From assembly GCA_021295715.1 (NCBI GenBank), contig JAGWBV010000023.1:1-46666 (forward strand): 46,666 bases of DNA, written 5' to 3'. The DNA comes from Candidatus Poribacteria bacterium (lineage in GTDB: Bacteria; Poribacteria; WGA-4E; WGA-3G). The notes under the pieces were generated by a model that saw only the letters and a program-made list of their open reading frames with translations, had not been told where the DNA came from and did not search any database. The position numbers were made by a program, and so were the translations under genes. This document shows, piece after piece, positions 5,780 to 37,874 of the stretch (within the stretch, counting starts at the first letter, position 1; each line of letters starts with the position of its first letter).

Positions 5780-5925
5780 ATTTTTAACTATGGTCCTTTG
5801 AGCATCGCTTCACTATGTTTCTGGATGGTTTCTGGTTAAGTACGAAGGGGTTTCAGTGTAGGAAACTGTTGGTCGCCTACGCACGAAGAGGCACAACCTA
5901 ACAGGTTATGCTACAATAGTCTCAA

Positions 5926-31268: not shown

Positions 31269-32897
31269 ATGCCTCTAAACAAACGGAAAAAAATCATTTT
31301 TATTTCCTTAATCGTTCTTATTGGGGTTATCATTTTGCTATCCATTATCTATCAACGGACTGCGCTGTGGGAACCGGAACAGCATCTTATCACGCTACTC
31401 CCGAAATCTCCTATTTGCTATTTGACGCTCAAGGAATTGAAAGGCTTGGTGGAAACCTTCAATCGTAGTGAATTCGGAAAACAGCCTGCTAAAATGCCGA
31501 TTCTCACGGAGATTCAAAAGCAGCTCTGGTGGAAACAACTCGTCTACCAGAAGCAGCTCTGGGAATACGAGGTGGGGGGTAAGCTCGACCTGAAGACGAT
31601 CACCGGTTATTTTGGGGAGGAAGCCATTCTCGCACTCTATCGGCGTGAAGGAGAACTCTCGTTTCTGCTCATCTCCGCAGTCGGCGCGCCGGAGAAACTG
31701 AGCATTGAAGCGATTACGGCGACGGATGTAATCAACCCAAAATACGAACGGATTCAAACCGATTACAACGGGTTGACGATTAATACCATCATAGGGTATC
31801 CACGCAATTTTAGTTATACCTTCATCGGAAAGATTGGGATCTTAACCCTCAATCCGTTGTTATTAGCTGAGACGCTTGACCTCTATACCGAGCTTTCTGG
31901 CACAAAAACTGACCCCAAAAAGCAAGGATTTCTTGCTGAGCACCCCATGGCGGCGGAGATACAGGACGATTATCAGCAGAACAAAAACACCGGGTATATA
32001 GATTTGCAGCAGTTTACGCCTTTAGTGGCTGGTATGAGTTCCGATGTGCTTGCTAAACAGATTTTGGGCTGGTTTGGGGATTCAGGAACTTGGGCGTTTA
32101 GCAACCGATATGAAGAGGGTGTGATTGTGTCACGGCATCGGTTCCGAAGCGGTATTGACACCACCCGTTCTCATATTCCAACTGCGGATGCCTCAAACTC
32201 GTTCCTTGCTTACCCTGAACGCACTGCCTTTGTTGCTTCGCTCCCGATCCTGAAACAGCTGCAAGAACTCTTCGGTGATATAGATCTCTCCGAAATTTTG
32301 GGTCAAGACTTAACTGTTCTGTTAGTCGCGCCCGATCCGGGTGAAGTTTCGGTTGTGCCTTCATTGGTTCTGCTGGCGCATGCGAAGGCTCCCGATGTCC
32401 TAAACGAGGTTTTGGGGGTCGTGAAGGCAGGGAAGCCCGCAATTGCTGGCAAACCGCTCGAATTCCTTGAACCGAAAGATTATAAGGGCATCAAACTGCA
32501 ACCTGTGCAGCTCCGACTCAATTTTCTATTAGCGATTACAGGTGGATACGCAATCGTTGACGACTATTTCGTCTTGGGGACAACGCTGGCGGGATTGAAG
32601 TCTTTGGTTGATACGACGACAGGTAACGCGCCTGTCTTGGAGGGTATAGCGTTTTCCGCAGAGGCAAGTGGCGTTCAGACGTTCGTTCAACCGGAGTTGT
32701 TTGTGCCGGAGTTGAAGCGTTTCCTTCCGATCGTAACAGTGCTTTTTTCTTTATCGGGACAGAAGTTAGATGCAACAGTAACGCAACATATCACGGAAAA
32801 CCTCTTTCCACTGGAATCTCTCGGTCCGGTTTCCACTGAGATGAATTTTGGTGAGCACGGTATCGATGCAGAGATTCGGATTGTTTTGGAGAAGTGA
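31269..32897 (+). CDS. Membrane-anchored DUF3352-like protein
   Basis: A 542-residue protein with one N-terminal hydrophobic helix (about 8-27) after a Lys-rich start, then a large soluble part that should lie outside the membrane. The pattern of LLPKSPICYLTLKELKGLVE, followed by repeated strand/helix units and VLLVAPDPGE / VPSLVLLAHAKAP, resembles DUF3352 proteins, whose function is unknown. It is the first plus-strand gene of this region and is divergent from the DUF6785 gene. The family assignment is tentative. Confidence 0.75.
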   Translation: MPLNKRKKIIFISLIVLIGVIILLSIIYQRTALWEPEQHLITLLPKSPICYLTLKELKGLVETFNRSEFGKQPAKMPILTEIQKQLWWKQLVYQKQLWEYEVGGKLDLKTITGYFGEEAILALYRREGELSFLLISAVGAPEKLSIEAITATDVINPKYERIQTDYNGLTINTIIGYPRNFSYTFIGKIGILTLNPLLLAETLDLYTELSGTKTDPKKQGFLAEHPMAAEIQDDYQQNKNTGYIDLQQFTPLVAGMSSDVLAKQILGWFGDSGTWAFSNRYEEGVIVSRHRFRSGIDTTRSHIPTADASNSFLAYPERTAFVASLPILKQLQELFGDIDLSEILGQDLTVLLVAPDPGEVSVVPSLVLLAHAKAPDVLNEVLGVVKAGKPAIAGKPLEFLEPKDYKGIKLQPVQLRLNFLLAITGGYAIVDDYFVLGTTLAGLKSLVDTTTGNAPVLEGIAFSAEASGVQTFVQPELFVPELKRFLPIVTVLFSLSGQKLDATVTQHITENLFPLESLGPVSTEMNFGEHGIDAEIRIVLEK

Positions 32898-32929: not shown

Positions 32930-32956
32930 AACTCCGATTCCCGACTTTCCTTTTCA
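32930..32956. repeat. 27-bp dispersed repeat, copy 2
   Basis: It is identical over 27 bp to 15961-15987 and is followed by ACCCCGTAGGGGT, a short hairpin that recurs in weaker form near 33015-33030. Confidence 0.75.
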
Positions 32957-33063
32957 ACCCCGTAGGGGTGGCATCTCTGTAGAAAACTGTAGAACGTTAT
33001 GAACCCTAACAGTGAACCCCGTAGGGATGACATTTACAATCTTTGACTTCGCGGTATGTTGAC

Positions 33064-33092
33064 GTGACATTCACTGATTTGTGTGGTATTCT
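33064..33092 (+). promoter_or_regulatory. Promoter-like sequence upstream of the antitoxin/PIN pair
   Basis: GTGACA (33064-33069) and TATTCT (33087-33092) are separated by 17 nt, with TGG before the -10 box. The leader to ATG 33361 would be about 260 nt. Confidence 0.45.
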
Positions 33093-33308
33093 AATAACAT
33101 GAGTTCAGTGTAAAGATAAAAACGAATATTAGAAAAGTAGATTTATCGTAACATAACGCCAGTTTGAAAATAAATCTGTAGGTGTTTTTGCTTGGGTGTT
33201 TCCCCAGGTAGAGCGGTAAATACACACCAAAAGCCACTTTTCAAGACACTTGCTGCCTCAATACCGGTAGCGAAACCCGACATTCCACTTTTATCAAACT
33301 CACGTTAA

Positions 33309-33360
33309 CATAAACTGTTAGTTTGTGCCATTTCGGAAAAGATACAGGAGGGTTTTACAA
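33309..33360 (+). promoter_or_regulatory. Conserved 52-bp leader before the antitoxin gene
   Basis: CATAAACTGTTAGTTTGTG forms a small stem and is followed by CATTTCGGAAAAGATA and an AGGAGGG ribosome binding site. The same block stands at exactly the same distance (52 bp) before the start codon at 34493. Confidence 0.6.
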
Positions 33361-33707
33361 TGGAAAAAGACACACTCGAAACCATCGCCCAACGTTTGGA
33401 TCGGTTGGAGAAGATGATGACCGAGGTAAATCAGACGCTTTCTTGGATCGTTGAGAAAGTGGTACCAGATATTCCGAAAGACCGCGAAGCTGCCGCTACG
33501 CTGAGGGGAGCTGAAGCACTAAAAAACGACAAGCGGGATGCCCATCGCGCCAAGGAAGCCTTGGACAGAATATTTGAAAAAATGGGAATTCCACCTGATT
33601 TTGAACTCAGACCTCTTAAGGAAGTTCGTAAGAGTATGGTCGAAAGCGGCATCCGACCGGAGGACAACGAGTTCAGTCGCGCAATTATCGCTGAGCGAGA
33701 GAAATAG
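33361..33707 (+). CDS. Probable antitoxin of a PIN-domain pair
   Basis: A 115-residue charged, mostly helical protein. Residues 5 to about 35 could form a coiled coil (RLDRLEKMMTEVNQTLSWIVEKV). No recognised DNA-binding motif is seen. It ends 2 bp before the GTG start of a PIN-domain gene, the usual layout of type II toxin-antitoxin pairs, so the antitoxin role rests on position. AGGAGGG precedes the ATG. The gene lies between 15-bp inverted repeats (33294-33308 and 34286-34300). Confidence 0.75.
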
Positions 33708-33709
33708 CC

Positions 33710-34207
33710 GTGTACTATTTCTACTTTGACGCTAGCGCACTTGCCAAGCGATATATTGAAGAAATTGGTAGTGATAAAATTGATTTTCTTTTTGCAAATC
33801 TCTCTTTGACGCATCTGCAGTGCTTGGTAATCGGGGCGATGGAAGTATTTTGGATCTGTGTTCGTAAAAAGAATGATGGTCGCATCACTGCGGATCAGTT
33901 TACTCAGGCTACTGGACACTTAGAATTTGAGGTAATTAACACCCAATCCGATTTCAAAACTATTCCGATTCCGGATTCGCTTGTTTGGGACTCAATGGAT
34001 TTGATTGAAACTCATTCGCTCAATAGTGTTGATGCAATCGTCTTGCGTTCTGCCTTGAACGTTGCAGCAGAACTCCGCCGCGCAGGCGATACATTGGTAC
34101 TTGTTGCATCAGATCAACGTCTTCTCAGAGCCGCTCGCGCTGAGGGATTGCAAGTTTTTAACCCAGAAATAGATTCACAAAAAATACTCACAGATTGGAT
34201 AAGTTAA
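33710..34207 (+). CDS. PIN-domain ribonuclease (probable VapC-type toxin)
   Basis: A 165-residue PIN-domain protein. The acidic residues that hold the catalytic metal are present: Asp7 (YFDASALAKRY), Glu45 (GAMEVFW), Asp108 (NSVDAIVL) and Asp135 (LVASDQRLLRAA). VapC toxins cleave RNA such as tRNA, but the target here is unknown. It starts at GTG 33710, 2 bp after the partner gene. Its last about 26 codons are repeated in diverged form at 36737-36817, in front of the oxidoreductase. Confidence 0.9.
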   Translation: MYYFYFDASALAKRYIEEIGSDKIDFLFANLSLTHLQCLVIGAMEVFWICVRKKNDGRITADQFTQATGHLEFEVINTQSDFKTIPIPDSLVWDSMDLIETHSLNSVDAIVLRSALNVAAELRRAGDTLVLVASDQRLLRAARAEGLQVFNPEIDSQKILTDWIS

Positions 34208-34247
34208 CAGAATGGAAACAAAAATTGGTATCGGCATCATCAGTTTG
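34127..34247. repeat. Border repeat, copy 1 (PIN tail plus oxidoreductase start)
   Basis: About 121 bp at a constant offset of 2,610 bp from 36737-36857. By eye about 12 mismatches are seen, all in the PIN-tail part; the 36 bp from the ATG to the break are identical. Confidence 0.85.
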
Positions 34248-34289
34248 CGCACGTATTGGAAACCCAATCTAAAAAATTCTGCTACTTAA
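34212..34289 (+). pseudogene. Truncated start of a Gfo/Idh/MocA oxidoreductase gene
   Basis: ATG 34212 begins METKIGIGIIS, the same eleven residues as the intact oxidoreductase at 36822. The frame then leaves the homology and stops after 25 residues (TAA 34287-34289). It is a 5' remnant created at a recombination border, 4 bp after the PIN gene. Confidence 0.8.
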
Positions 34290-34300
34290 CGTGAGTTTGA
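34286..34300. repeat. 15-bp inverted copy flanking the toxin-antitoxin unit
   Basis: TTAACGTGAGTTTGA is the exact reverse complement of 33294-33308. The two enclose the leader, antitoxin, PIN gene and truncated oxidoreductase start (about 1 kb). The rest of 34301-34440 holds no gene. Confidence 0.65.
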
Positions 34301-34440
34301 CATAAAAATCTACCTTTAGATCGGATCGAACAGAAGAAAATAGAACACTACCTATCCAAAAAACTTTGACCCTCCTGTCAATATCTCATTTTAGTCAGGG
34401 GTCTATGGTAAAACCTATAAATAAGTGGACATCTTTGTAG

Positions 34441-34492
34441 CATAAACTTTTAGTTTGTGTCATTTCGGAAGAGATAAAGGAATTTTGCGATA
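34441..34492 (+). promoter_or_regulatory. Conserved 52-bp leader before the hydrolase-like pair
   Basis: CATAAACTTTTAGTTTGTG followed by CATTTCGGAAGAGATAAAGG, ending at ATG 34493. It matches the leader at 33309-33360 in sequence and in spacing to the start codon. Confidence 0.6.
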
Positions 34493-35566
34493 ATGGCAGA
34501 CTTTTACACAATTGAGAAGCAGGACGGGCGTTGGTGGTTCATCACACCCGACGGCGCGCGGTTCTGGTCCATCGGCATGAACCATATCGACTCGGCTGCG
34601 TTGCGATATGTAGAGTCGGACGGCGTGTGGGAACGCGAGTTCGGCAACAGTCAAGAACAGTGGTTACGCACGGTCGCTGATGATCTGCGTGATTGGGGTT
34701 TTAACACGATTGGCTGGACCCAGGAAGTCGTAATTATCACTCCAGGCTACCACCGCCATTCGCGACCCTTCACCTATGAGGAATACCAGTGGGCAGATAT
34801 GCCTTACTGCCACCTACTACCTTTCACCGAGGCACATCAGTGGCAGGTTGAGGTCCGTATGCCCGATCTGACGAGTTCCGACTTCGAGGAGTGGTGCGAC
34901 TACGTCGCCCGCGATGAGTGTGTACGCTTGCGCGACGATCCCAAGCTTATTGGCTATTTCTACTGCGATTGTCCTCAGTGGGTGCACACCTCTCCTGACA
35001 CGCAGTGGCGTGGGTCGTTAGTCGATCCAGAGTTGCTCGAATCGGAGGCAGGACGCCGCGAACTCTCTGTCATTGCTGAACGCTACTACAGGATCACGCA
35101 TGACGCTATCCGCCGTTACGATCCGAATCACCTGATCTTGGGGGACCGATGGGAGGCAAACGCAGTGCTTCCTGAGGAGGTGGTCCGTGCGGCACTGCCC
35201 TACGTCGATGTACTCAGTTTTCAATGTTTTGGGACAGTAGAGAATATCGCCACGAAGATGCGACACTGGGCAGACTTCGCAGACCGACCGGTTCTGCTGG
35301 CTGACGCGGCGGGGCATATACGCGCCCATAGCGACACCAGTTGGCCCCCCACCGCAGACCGCTTGCACGATACAGACCACTATCGTCAAGTGATGGACGC
35401 GCTCGGGGATATCCCGCAATGCATCGGATATCATCTATGTGGGGCATACCTTAAGAACAACGCGCGCATGTGCGGATTTCGAGACCCGGCAAACAATCAA
35501 ATTAACGAGACGGTGGCTGGTATTCGCGCCGTCAACGCCGAAAGGCAGCGGAGACAAAACCCATGA
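34493..35566 (+). CDS. Glycoside hydrolase-like TIM-barrel protein (GH50-like), paralogue 1
   Basis: A 357-residue protein. It opens with GRWWFITPDGARFWSIGMN, a start common in beta-agarase (GH50-like) and related clan-A barrels, and keeps the helix/strand ERYYRITHDAIRRYDPNHLILG (197-217). The two places where such enzymes carry catalytic Glu are altered: GYFYCDCPQW (154-163) instead of a motif ending in N-E, and RPVLLADAAG (265-274) instead of VL-x-E. It may use other residues or be a non-catalytic sugar-binding barrel. No signal peptide is seen. Its last 4 bp overlap the next gene (ATGA). By eye it is more GC-rich than its neighbours. Confidence 0.75.
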   Translation: MADFYTIEKQDGRWWFITPDGARFWSIGMNHIDSAALRYVESDGVWEREFGNSQEQWLRTVADDLRDWGFNTIGWTQEVVIITPGYHRHSRPFTYEEYQWADMPYCHLLPFTEAHQWQVEVRMPDLTSSDFEEWCDYVARDECVRLRDDPKLIGYFYCDCPQWVHTSPDTQWRGSLVDPELLESEAGRRELSVIAERYYRITHDAIRRYDPNHLILGDRWEANAVLPEEVVRAALPYVDVLSFQCFGTVENIATKMRHWADFADRPVLLADAAGHIRAHSDTSWPPTADRLHDTDHYRQVMDALGDIPQCIGYHLCGAYLKNNARMCGFRDPANNQINETVAGIRAVNAERQRRQNP

Positions 35567-36738
35567 CACATACACTTGATGCGTACGGCGGCACAACCCA
35601 ACTCAGGGGAAAAAGCACCGGTTGGTTTCATCTGGAGAAACTGAACGGACGCAGATGGTTCATCACACCTGAGGGCAACGCCTTTTTCCCGGTGTCGCTG
35701 TCTCATCTCTACACCGGCAACAGTCAGCCAACCGTGCGAAAACTCTATAACGGGGACAAGGATACGTGGATTGAAAATTGGTTCGCTCAAATGCGAGCAC
35801 TCGGATTTAACTGCGCACTCGCAGGCGCGACGAGTCAGTGTCGGGATCCTAAGGGCTATGTGGAGGTCGAGAAGGTGGAAGCACTGTTTCGCCGTGAATC
35901 TTTCCCATACGCTGCCGGACTTTTCCTGATCCCTCACCCCAACGAACTACCGAAAAGTCAGGAACGCCCGGATATCTTCGCCGCCGCTTATCAGGAGTGG
36001 GTAGAGGCGTTAGTCGCCGATGTTTGCTCGCGGTACGTCAATGATCCGATGATGATGGGATACTACTACGGTTTCGGGACCTTCATCAGACCGGGGAGTT
36101 GGATCGATGCAATACCCTCGCTCGACAGTGAAGCACCAGAGCAGGAGAATATCCGAAAAATGGCAGTCCACCTGTACCGTATGGCACACGATGCGATACG
36201 TCGGCATGACCCCAACCACCTGATTCTCGGACCTTATGTCAAGGAGCAGTCCTTCGACTTGGAAACGTGGAAGGCTTTGACGCCTTATGTTGACATGCTT
36301 TCGCCTCAGCACTTCAACCGCAACATCAGTTTTGCCGAACAGAGTGCCGCAACAGGCAGATCCGTGTTGGTTTCTGATGAGGAATCGGGTCATATTTTCG
36401 ATGCGCCACGCCAGAATCCGCGCAGTGTGACGTCCGAGCACAAGGGACGCATCTACAGCTTGCTGCTTGACCGCCATTTGCGAGACTCGAACGTGTGCGG
36501 CATCAATTTTTGCGCGACGCTGTACGACCTTGACGATGGTCCGTTGATGGACATGGCGGGCATGATGGAGGGCTTGTACGACTGGGACGGTAACCCTAAA
36601 CCCGGTCTGGTGGACGCCGTAAGGGACGCCAACAAGGAAATCTATGGACGCGCAACAGAGCCTTGTGGTTCTGCTCTCGACGAGTTGGATGAAAAGTTGT
36701 GTCGCACCAGAGATAAAGTCCACGAACACATTCGTTAG
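35563..36738 (+). CDS. Glycoside hydrolase-like TIM-barrel protein, paralogue 2
   Basis: A 391-residue relative of the preceding protein. Shared segments include RRWFITPEGNAFFPVS (30-45), GFNCALAGAT, YRMAHDAIRRHDPNHLILG (205-223) and PYVDMLSPQHF. The catalytic positions again differ from GH50: MMGYYYGFGTF (164-174) and VLVSDEESGH (268-277); the latter keeps acidic residues. The start overlaps the upstream stop by 4 bp, so the two are made together and may form a heteromer. The stop codon falls 2 bp into, or directly at, the border repeat at 36737, so the C-terminus may have been set by the recombination. Confidence 0.75.
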   Translation: MTHTLDAYGGTTQLRGKSTGWFHLEKLNGRRWFITPEGNAFFPVSLSHLYTGNSQPTVRKLYNGDKDTWIENWFAQMRALGFNCALAGATSQCRDPKGYVEVEKVEALFRRESFPYAAGLFLIPHPNELPKSQERPDIFAAAYQEWVEALVADVCSRYVNDPMMMGYYYGFGTFIRPGSWIDAIPSLDSEAPEQENIRKMAVHLYRMAHDAIRRHDPNHLILGPYVKEQSFDLETWKALTPYVDMLSPQHFNRNISFAEQSAATGRSVLVSDEESGHIFDAPRQNPRSVTSEHKGRIYSLLLDRHLRDSNVCGINFCATLYDLDDGPLMDMAGMMEGLYDWDGNPKPGLVDAVRDANKEIYGRATEPCGSALDELDEKLCRTRDKVHEHIR

Positions 36739-36817
36739 AGCCGCTCGCACAGAGGGATTGCAAATTTTTAACCCAGAGATAGATTCACAACAGACACTTG
36801 TAGATTGGATAAGTTAA
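36737..36817 (+). pseudogene. Remnant of a PIN-domain gene (C-terminal end)
   Basis: Read in frame this encodes RAARTEGLQIFNPEIDSQ and then QTLVDWIS before a TAA stop at 36815-36817. It matches the last 26 residues of the PIN protein at 33710-34207 with a few substitutions. No start or catalytic part remains. Confidence 0.8.
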
Positions 36818-36857
36818 TAGTATGGAAACAAAAATTGGTATCGGCATCATCAGTTTT
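36737..36857. repeat. Border repeat, copy 2
   Basis: The partner of 34127-34247. It runs from the end of the second hydrolase-like gene into the first twelve codons of the intact oxidoreductase. Confidence 0.85.
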
Positions 36858-37874
36858 GCACATGGACACGCCAACGCCTACTGCAACCAGATGCAGACGT
36901 TTGACGATGTTGAACTCATCGCGTGTTGGGACGATAACGTTGAACGCGGGGAAGCCGCCGCAACACAATACGGCATGCGTTACTCGCCGCACCTTGAAGA
37001 TGTCATCAACCACCCAGATATTCACGCCGTTATCGTGACGTGTGAGACGAATCGGCACGCCGAGATGGTGGTCGCCGCCGCGTCGGAGGGAAAGGATATC
37101 CTCTGCCAAAAACCGATGGCACTCACGTTGGAAGATTGCGATCGCATCGCCGAGGTTGTCGAGAAAACAGGTGTAAAATTTATGATGGGGCATCAGATGC
37201 GGCGCGATCCAGCGAACATCGCCATGAAAGAGATCATTGACAGCGGTGTTCTCGGTAAAATCGGTGTGCTCCGCCGCCGACACTGCATCAATGCCTTGTT
37301 CAGTGAAGCCTTCGTAACAGGACCCAGTCGTTGGCACATCGATCCAGAGAAGAATATGGGGATGTTCATGGACGATGCCTCTCACGCAACCGATTTTATC
37401 CACTGGATGCTCGGTAAACCGACGAGTGTTATCGCCGAGATTGATAACATCTTGACGGATGTCGCACCAGATGACACCGGGTTGGCTGTCTATCGGTTTG
37501 CGGATGGTGAAATGGCGATTCTGCTGAATACATCTGTGACACTCGCCGGTGAGAATACGACCGAAATCTATGGCGATGAAGGTGTCGTCATTCAGAACTA
37601 TGGCGATGCACCATCGTGCAATATCCCGCGTCCCGTGGATGCTGTTGCACTTAAGTTGTATACGCGAGATGAACCCTCGTGGAAGGATCTGGGTATCCCA
37701 ATCCCAGATGGGCACGGAGAACGGATTGGCGGCGTGCCTCGACCCTTTATTGACTGCCTGAAGAACGGAACGGAACCCGATGTTACAGTGGAGGATGGAC
37801 GGGTTTCAGTAGAGATGATTTTGGGAGCGTATCGTTCTGCACAGGAAGGACGGCGCGTTACATTTCCTTTGTAA
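36822..37874 (+). CDS. Gfo/Idh/MocA family oxidoreductase
   Basis: A 350-residue NAD(P)-dependent sugar or inositol dehydrogenase-like protein. The N-terminal Rossmann strand (IGIGIISFAHGHA) has a modified glycine motif. CQKPMAL carries Lys97, the usual E-K-P site. DDASHATDFIHW contains the His of the catalytic D-x-x-x-H. The substrate is unknown. The ATG follows the PIN remnant by 4 bp, the same spacing as between the PIN gene and the truncated copy at 34212, so the gene once stood directly behind a PIN gene. Only a weak ribosome binding site is seen. It converges on the SDR gene. Confidence 0.93.
   Translation: METKIGIGIISFAHGHANAYCNQMQTFDDVELIACWDDNVERGEAAATQYGMRYSPHLEDVINHPDIHAVIVTCETNRHAEMVVAAASEGKDILCQKPMALTLEDCDRIAEVVEKTGVKFMMGHQMRRDPANIAMKEIIDSGVLGKIGVLRRRHCINALFSEAFVTGPSRWHIDPEKNMGMFMDDASHATDFIHWMLGKPTSVIAEIDNILTDVAPDDTGLAVYRFADGEMAILLNTSVTLAGENTTEIYGDEGVVIQNYGDAPSCNIPRPVDAVALKLYTRDEPSWKDLGIPIPDGHGERIGGVPRPFIDCLKNGTEPDVTVEDGRVSVEMILGAYRSAQEGRRVTFPL

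Follow-up and report, generated by a model that had tools for sequence, protein, structure and literature searches.

We report a clearly bounded case from uncultured sponge symbionts in which a pair of hydrolase genes, HYD1 and HYD2, appears to have left its usual site, to have taken over the leader and ribosome-binding site (RBS) of a toxin-antitoxin locus, and then to have been exchanged between two species, whereas its surroundings were not. The common ancestor of the pair is younger than that of the genes around it. The window, i.e. the whole stretch of DNA that was analysed, comprises 46,666 nucleotides of a Candidatus Poribacteria draft genome of 175 contigs (G000); the relatives named below are likewise Candidatus Poribacteria, all of which we take to be symbionts of marine sponges, and the closest of them, G013, is a sister species.

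Structure of the two units

The initial annotation described two consecutive units with matching borders and different middle parts, and this was confirmed, together with the gene content assigned to them. The right-border repeat (34127-34246 and 36737-36856) spans 120 nt with 90% identity, the leader repeat (33306-33349 and 34438-34481) 44 nt with 89% identity, and exact matches between the units reach 35 bp at most. The distance from hairpin to start codon, given as 52 bp for both, is indeed 52 bp in unit 2 (34441 to 34493) but 51 bp in unit 1 (33309 to 33360). Features are on the plus strand unless stated otherwise.

The left neighbour of the array, TM542 (31269-32897; 542 aa, no Pfam match), is conserved and syntenic in most congeners. 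It is followed by a promoter-like site of the antitoxin operon with an extended -10 element (33064-33092), the scan by itself being not above chance; the string TGTGGTATnCTAATA is kept upstream of the antitoxin in relatives. A 19-bp direct repeat, AACCCCGTAGGGRTGRCAT, occurs twice upstream of this site (window positions 32956-32974 and 33015-33033).

Unit 1 consists of leader 1 (33309-33359: a GTAG-type hairpin at 33309-33327, the antitoxin 5'UTR and RBS), an antitoxin-like gene (33360-33707) that is conserved beside the PIN gene in the genus, an intact PIN-domain toxin-like gene (33710-34207) and a truncated oxidoreductase copy of 12 codons (34212-34247), which matches 36822-36856 exactly over 35 bp. 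Unit 2 opens with leader 2 (34441-34492: hairpin at 34441-34459, antitoxin-type 5'UTR and RBS), fused to the start codon of HYD1 (34493-35566). HYD2 (35563-36738) follows, and then the last 24 or so codons of a PIN gene (36739-36814), which form part of the right-border repeat and at the same time the 5' flank of an intact Gfo/Idh/MocA oxidoreductase (36822-37874; PF01408, E 1e-22), a gene with orthologs in most congeners. Two genes similar to GH50 agarases occupy the position of the antitoxin and of the greater part of the PIN gene. The joins fall on a start codon on the left, where antitoxin and HYD1 share ATGG, and on the HYD2 stop codon on the right, with a TTAG that some relatives likewise have in their PIN genes. 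As a result, the HYD pair sits behind the antitoxin RBS, and the oxidoreductase has kept its own 5' flank.

The sharp left edge of unit 1 results from MITE-A (33155-33306, minus strand, 152 bp), inserted within the leader; the site is uninterrupted in G013 (GATTTATCGTAGCATAAACTG) and empty in G010 as well. This element has terminal inverted repeats (AACGCCAGTTTGA / TCAAACTCACGTT), an AACAT target duplication (33150-33154 and 33307-33311), no gene, and many copies with a common body (47 genomic matches to its end against none for the reversed control), as is characteristic of MITEs. The 193 bp between the units (34248-34440), on which the initial annotation is silent, are mostly debris of dispersed mobile repeats. 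The right half of a GTAG-hairpin pair (34242-34285) meets the oxidoreductase start at the microhomology CAGTTTgCGCACG and has matches at 80-84% in G018, G003, G014, G033, G034, G007 and G001; next to it lie MITE-B (34288-34387), possibly partial, which has the AACGTGAGTTTGA end of MITE-A and 83% identity to G000:C86:735-835, and the left arm of MITE-C (34403-34440), which ends in GTAG. The latter represents a third MITE family with dozens of copies in congeners, and those read run on into the same hairpin as the leader. Since the MITE-C arm adjoins the hairpin, leader 2 is composed of a MITE arm and the hairpin, followed by the antitoxin 5'UTR. An inverted repeat (33294-33308 and 34286-34300) was considered as the boundary of a transposon containing unit 1; this was rejected, as the conserved body of other copies lies outward of these ends, which therefore belong to two separate MITEs.

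Ancestral order, the hairpin leader and the source of the hydrolase genes

Oxidoreductase orthologs were present in most of the congeners first searched, and the DNA upstream of them was compared. The usual order in most congeners is TM542-antitoxin-PIN-oxidoreductase as a single unit, and it recurs in more distant Poribacteria, with oxidoreductase identity down to approximately 82%. Unit 1 is therefore the old locus, cut at codon 12 of the oxidoreductase. Common departures among relatives are two to three antitoxin copies, loss of the PIN gene, or loss of the antitoxin-PIN pair; the locus has repeatedly undergone tandem duplication of the antitoxin gene, a single PIN gene then being preceded by two or three copies (L065, L076, L080, L087, L090, L236, L263). 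The last PIN codons are often retained in deletion alleles. As this tail is the oxidoreductase's own 5' flank, that part of the right border would persist whatever happened upstream. The right border is thus largely explained: the flank, which most deletion alleles keep, accounts for most of the match.

The leader match begins right at a hairpin. This hairpin makes up its first 19 bases and has 50 copies in the genome within two mismatches (reversed control, 0), so on their own these bases would not be special; those that follow (CATTTCGGAAnAGATAnAGGA) belong to the 5'UTR of this operon. GTAG precedes the stem in 27 of 30 genomic copies; copy 2 of the window has it, and the tag of copy 1 read GTAA before MITE-A was inserted. 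Both partners of one stem pair are altered in 26 of the 32 two-mismatch copies (about 5% expected), so the structure is conserved, although the 26 are related copies (six of eleven distinct sequences) and not independent events. The hairpin is found within the antitoxin 5'UTR of G010, G008, G034 and G013 and is absent from that of most other congeners compared; therefore it is a young insertion in this clade and not an ancestral border.

Further copies were noted elsewhere. One (CATAACCTGTTAGGTTGTG) lies in the window at 5892-5910 on the minus strand, and at least three MITE families of these Poribacteria, unrelated to one another, contain the hairpin; these have the ends AACGTGAGTTTGA, AGGACTTACGCA and CTATAGTAAAACC (L103, L112, L116; L104, L114, L115, L132; L169-L179). 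Deletions in G034 and G027 (L070, L077) fuse the end of TM542 straight to a GTAG hairpin, which puts the hairpin at the breakpoints of several lineages. The idea that the leader is a conserved regulatory RNA was rejected (no Rfam match, hairpin missing from the antitoxin leaders of most congeners), as was an origin from RAYT transposases: Y1 genes are not enriched for the hairpin, with a tagged copy at 5 of 31 Y1 loci, near background. The single Y1 gene found in the genome is of IS200/IS605 type (L207, G000:C32:28337-28690); it adjoins an interrupted tnpB-like gene and has a GTAG hairpin within 400 bp.

Counting fragments, 23 of the 38 genomes in the genus contain HYD1, and at least 15 of the 23 have it in full at a different locus; where such loci were compared, its usual site is behind gene X, which is nucleoside-hydrolase-like. 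Among 83 genomes of the class, HYD2 is intact only in G000, G013 and G022, and only in G022 at the usual site. There (L157), HYD2 has downstream of it a repeat of a 46-bp piece similar to the end of gene X, so that at this site, too, the tail of the left neighbour recurs after the cargo. In our genome, X is directly followed by a desaturase gene, with no HYD gene between them; the same vacated site exists in G010, with nearly the same scar, and in G033, with a related one. The HYD pair has therefore left its usual site in this clade. The DNA upstream of HYD1 at the usual site in relatives shows no resemblance to leader 2, hence HYD1 took the antitoxin leader at its start codon. In G033, scraps of HYD1 and HYD2 precede the PIN tail and there is no antitoxin unit, which points to a HYD allele at this locus that is older than the recent exchange.

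Divergence from the sister species and formation of the array

The sister relationship with G013 is supported by the oxidoreductase (99/95) and TM542 (100/99) trees. G013 has both halves of the array on two contigs, of which C186 carries TM542-leader-antitoxin-PIN start and C124 carries HYD1 (from codon 100)-HYD2-PIN tail-oxidoreductase; the missing PIN body and HYD1 start were found on no G013 contig. The comparison accordingly spans the tract from HYD1 codon 100, where C124 ends, onward. Along C124, the two sequences differ by about 2% within HYD1-HYD2 and, once the PIN tail is reached, mostly by 7% or more. At synonymous sites, dS between the two species is 0.048 for HYD1 and 0.048 for HYD2, against 0.342 for the oxidoreductase, 0.319 for TM542 and 0.299 for the antitoxin. 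The change in divergence is best placed at 36743 (support 36592-36778, log-likelihood gain 24); as the cargo ends at 36738, this point lies five bases beyond its stop codon. The ratio of HYD1 to oxidoreductase dS is 0.14 for this species pair, compared with 0.33-1.02 in 78 pairs from 13 genomes (our genome included, G013 excluded). A dS of 0.05 in the cargo and of 0.30-0.34 around it means that the cargo was exchanged after the species split. Exchange of cargo between borders, as initially proposed, thus stands in so far as a block passed between species with its right edge at the PIN-tail/oxidoreductase junction; the leader does not stand as an ancestral border. Given the support interval of approximately 190 bp, the end of the tract near the cargo border could be a coincidence.

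We consider it fairly probable that the array combines a resident unit 1 with a second copy of the locus that bears the displaced HYD pair, and that this pair was later exchanged again with the sister lineage. Unit 1 would be the resident antitoxin-PIN-oxidoreductase locus; in unit 2, HYD1-HYD2, displaced from the site beside X, would have replaced the antitoxin and most of the PIN gene. The order of events and direction of transfer that we infer are as follows. DNA with the HYD allele probably joined the resident locus, on the right through homology in the PIN tail and oxidoreductase and on the left perhaps through short homology, linking the oxidoreductase start to the GTAG-hairpin repeat; afterwards, the HYD segment would have been exchanged once more between lineages of this species and its sister. 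The leader may now drive expression of the HYD genes. The full array is visible in one genome only; in G013, the two units lie on separate contigs and are not seen side by side. The vacated X site is also present in G010, which has a single intact toxin-antitoxin unit, so the proposal needs a loss in that genome. In more general terms, the data suggest a role for dispersed GTAG hairpins and MITEs as sources of breakpoints in these genomes.

The structure expected from incoming DNA would equally result from a partial tandem duplication and a subsequent replacement. In its plain form, the leader-antitoxin-PIN-oxidoreductase start would have been duplicated in an ancestor and HYD1-HYD2 would then have replaced antitoxin and PIN in the second copy, no outside DNA being needed for the array. 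Both borders are copies of one locus, at which tandem antitoxin duplications are recurrent, but duplication alone leaves the 6-7-fold lower dS of the cargo between the sisters unexplained, and a later exchange has to be added; we regard this course as possible but rather unlikely. Incoming DNA with one homologous and one short-homology end would cover all joins in one step, whereas duplication and replacement would need two.

It is improbable that HYD1-HYD2 moves as an exact cassette from start to stop codon, which some activity at the GTAG-hairpin repeats would have placed at an identical nucleotide of two species in separate events; if it did, the break in divergence, five bases beyond the stop codon, would mark the edge of the cassette itself.

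Similarly, the recurring hot spot for cargo swapping in front of the oxidoreductase, put forward in the initial annotation, now seems quite improbable. In its favour, cargo does lie within matching borders at our locus and was exchanged between two species. However, a survey of approximately 45 poribacterial loci, each with an oxidoreductase ortholog of 80% identity or more, shows hydrolase cargo only in G000 and G013, plus the remnant in G033, which all belong to a single clade. Within the two borders, these loci yielded no other recognisable cargo, the remaining changes being antitoxin duplications, PIN losses and losses of the pair, and the hairpin leader is restricted to one clade.

An assembly chimera of strain variants, for which the draft state of the genome and the 35-bp exact repeat might speak, is very unlikely: the units do not meet at the shared stretch but are linked through 193 bp of other sequence, and the HYD2-stop/PIN-tail junction is present independently on C124, where PIN bases specific to G013 begin at the fifth position past the border (mismatches at 36743, 36747 and 36754), which an overlap join would not give. 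The same mismatches speak against a misjoined contig in G013. Strong purifying selection on HYD1-HYD2 without exchange is hardly credible, for although enzyme genes can be conserved, the low divergence concerns synonymous sites and HYD1 is not unusually slow elsewhere (dS 0.36-0.62 in the other species pairs listed).

Comparison with known systems

GTAG-tagged REP elements are short palindromes preceded by an unpaired GTAG and present in many dispersed copies (Di Nocera et al. 2013, PMC3733652), in a study that does not mention Poribacteria. The hairpins described here share the tag, the dispersed copies, head-to-head pairs and a covarying stem with them; in contrast, copies sit inside several MITE families and no link to Y1 (RAYT-type) genes was seen. 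A literature search for REP elements together with tandem duplication retrieved nothing.

The genes of unit 1 and the cargo resemble known families in part. VapBC-like toxin-antitoxin operons pair a small upstream gene with a PIN gene. Judged from sequence, the unit 1 operon appears alike in having a small upstream gene, the PIN gene 2 bp downstream and a conserved pairing; it differs in that no family of Pfam or NCBIfam matches the upstream protein and the PIN domain scores 19.9 bits against PF01850, under the curated threshold of 23.6. HYD1 and HYD2, neither of which has a Pfam match, are similar to enzymes of solved structure (phmmer, 4bq4, E 4e-12, and 4bq2, E 7e-8, respectively); these entries and 5t3b are GH50 beta-agarases. 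The similarity extends over parts of both proteins, which are thus agarase-like in sequence, yet they are short, with 357 and 391 aa compared with 481-765 aa.

Homologous or homology-facilitated illegitimate recombination after DNA uptake is characterised by homology on one side, microhomology on the other and a partial duplication beside the insert. Our case is unlike it in that the left join also involves dispersed hairpin repeats, and the process is read here from its sequence traces; it is like it in having one homologous end, one microhomology end and a partial duplication adjoining the insert.
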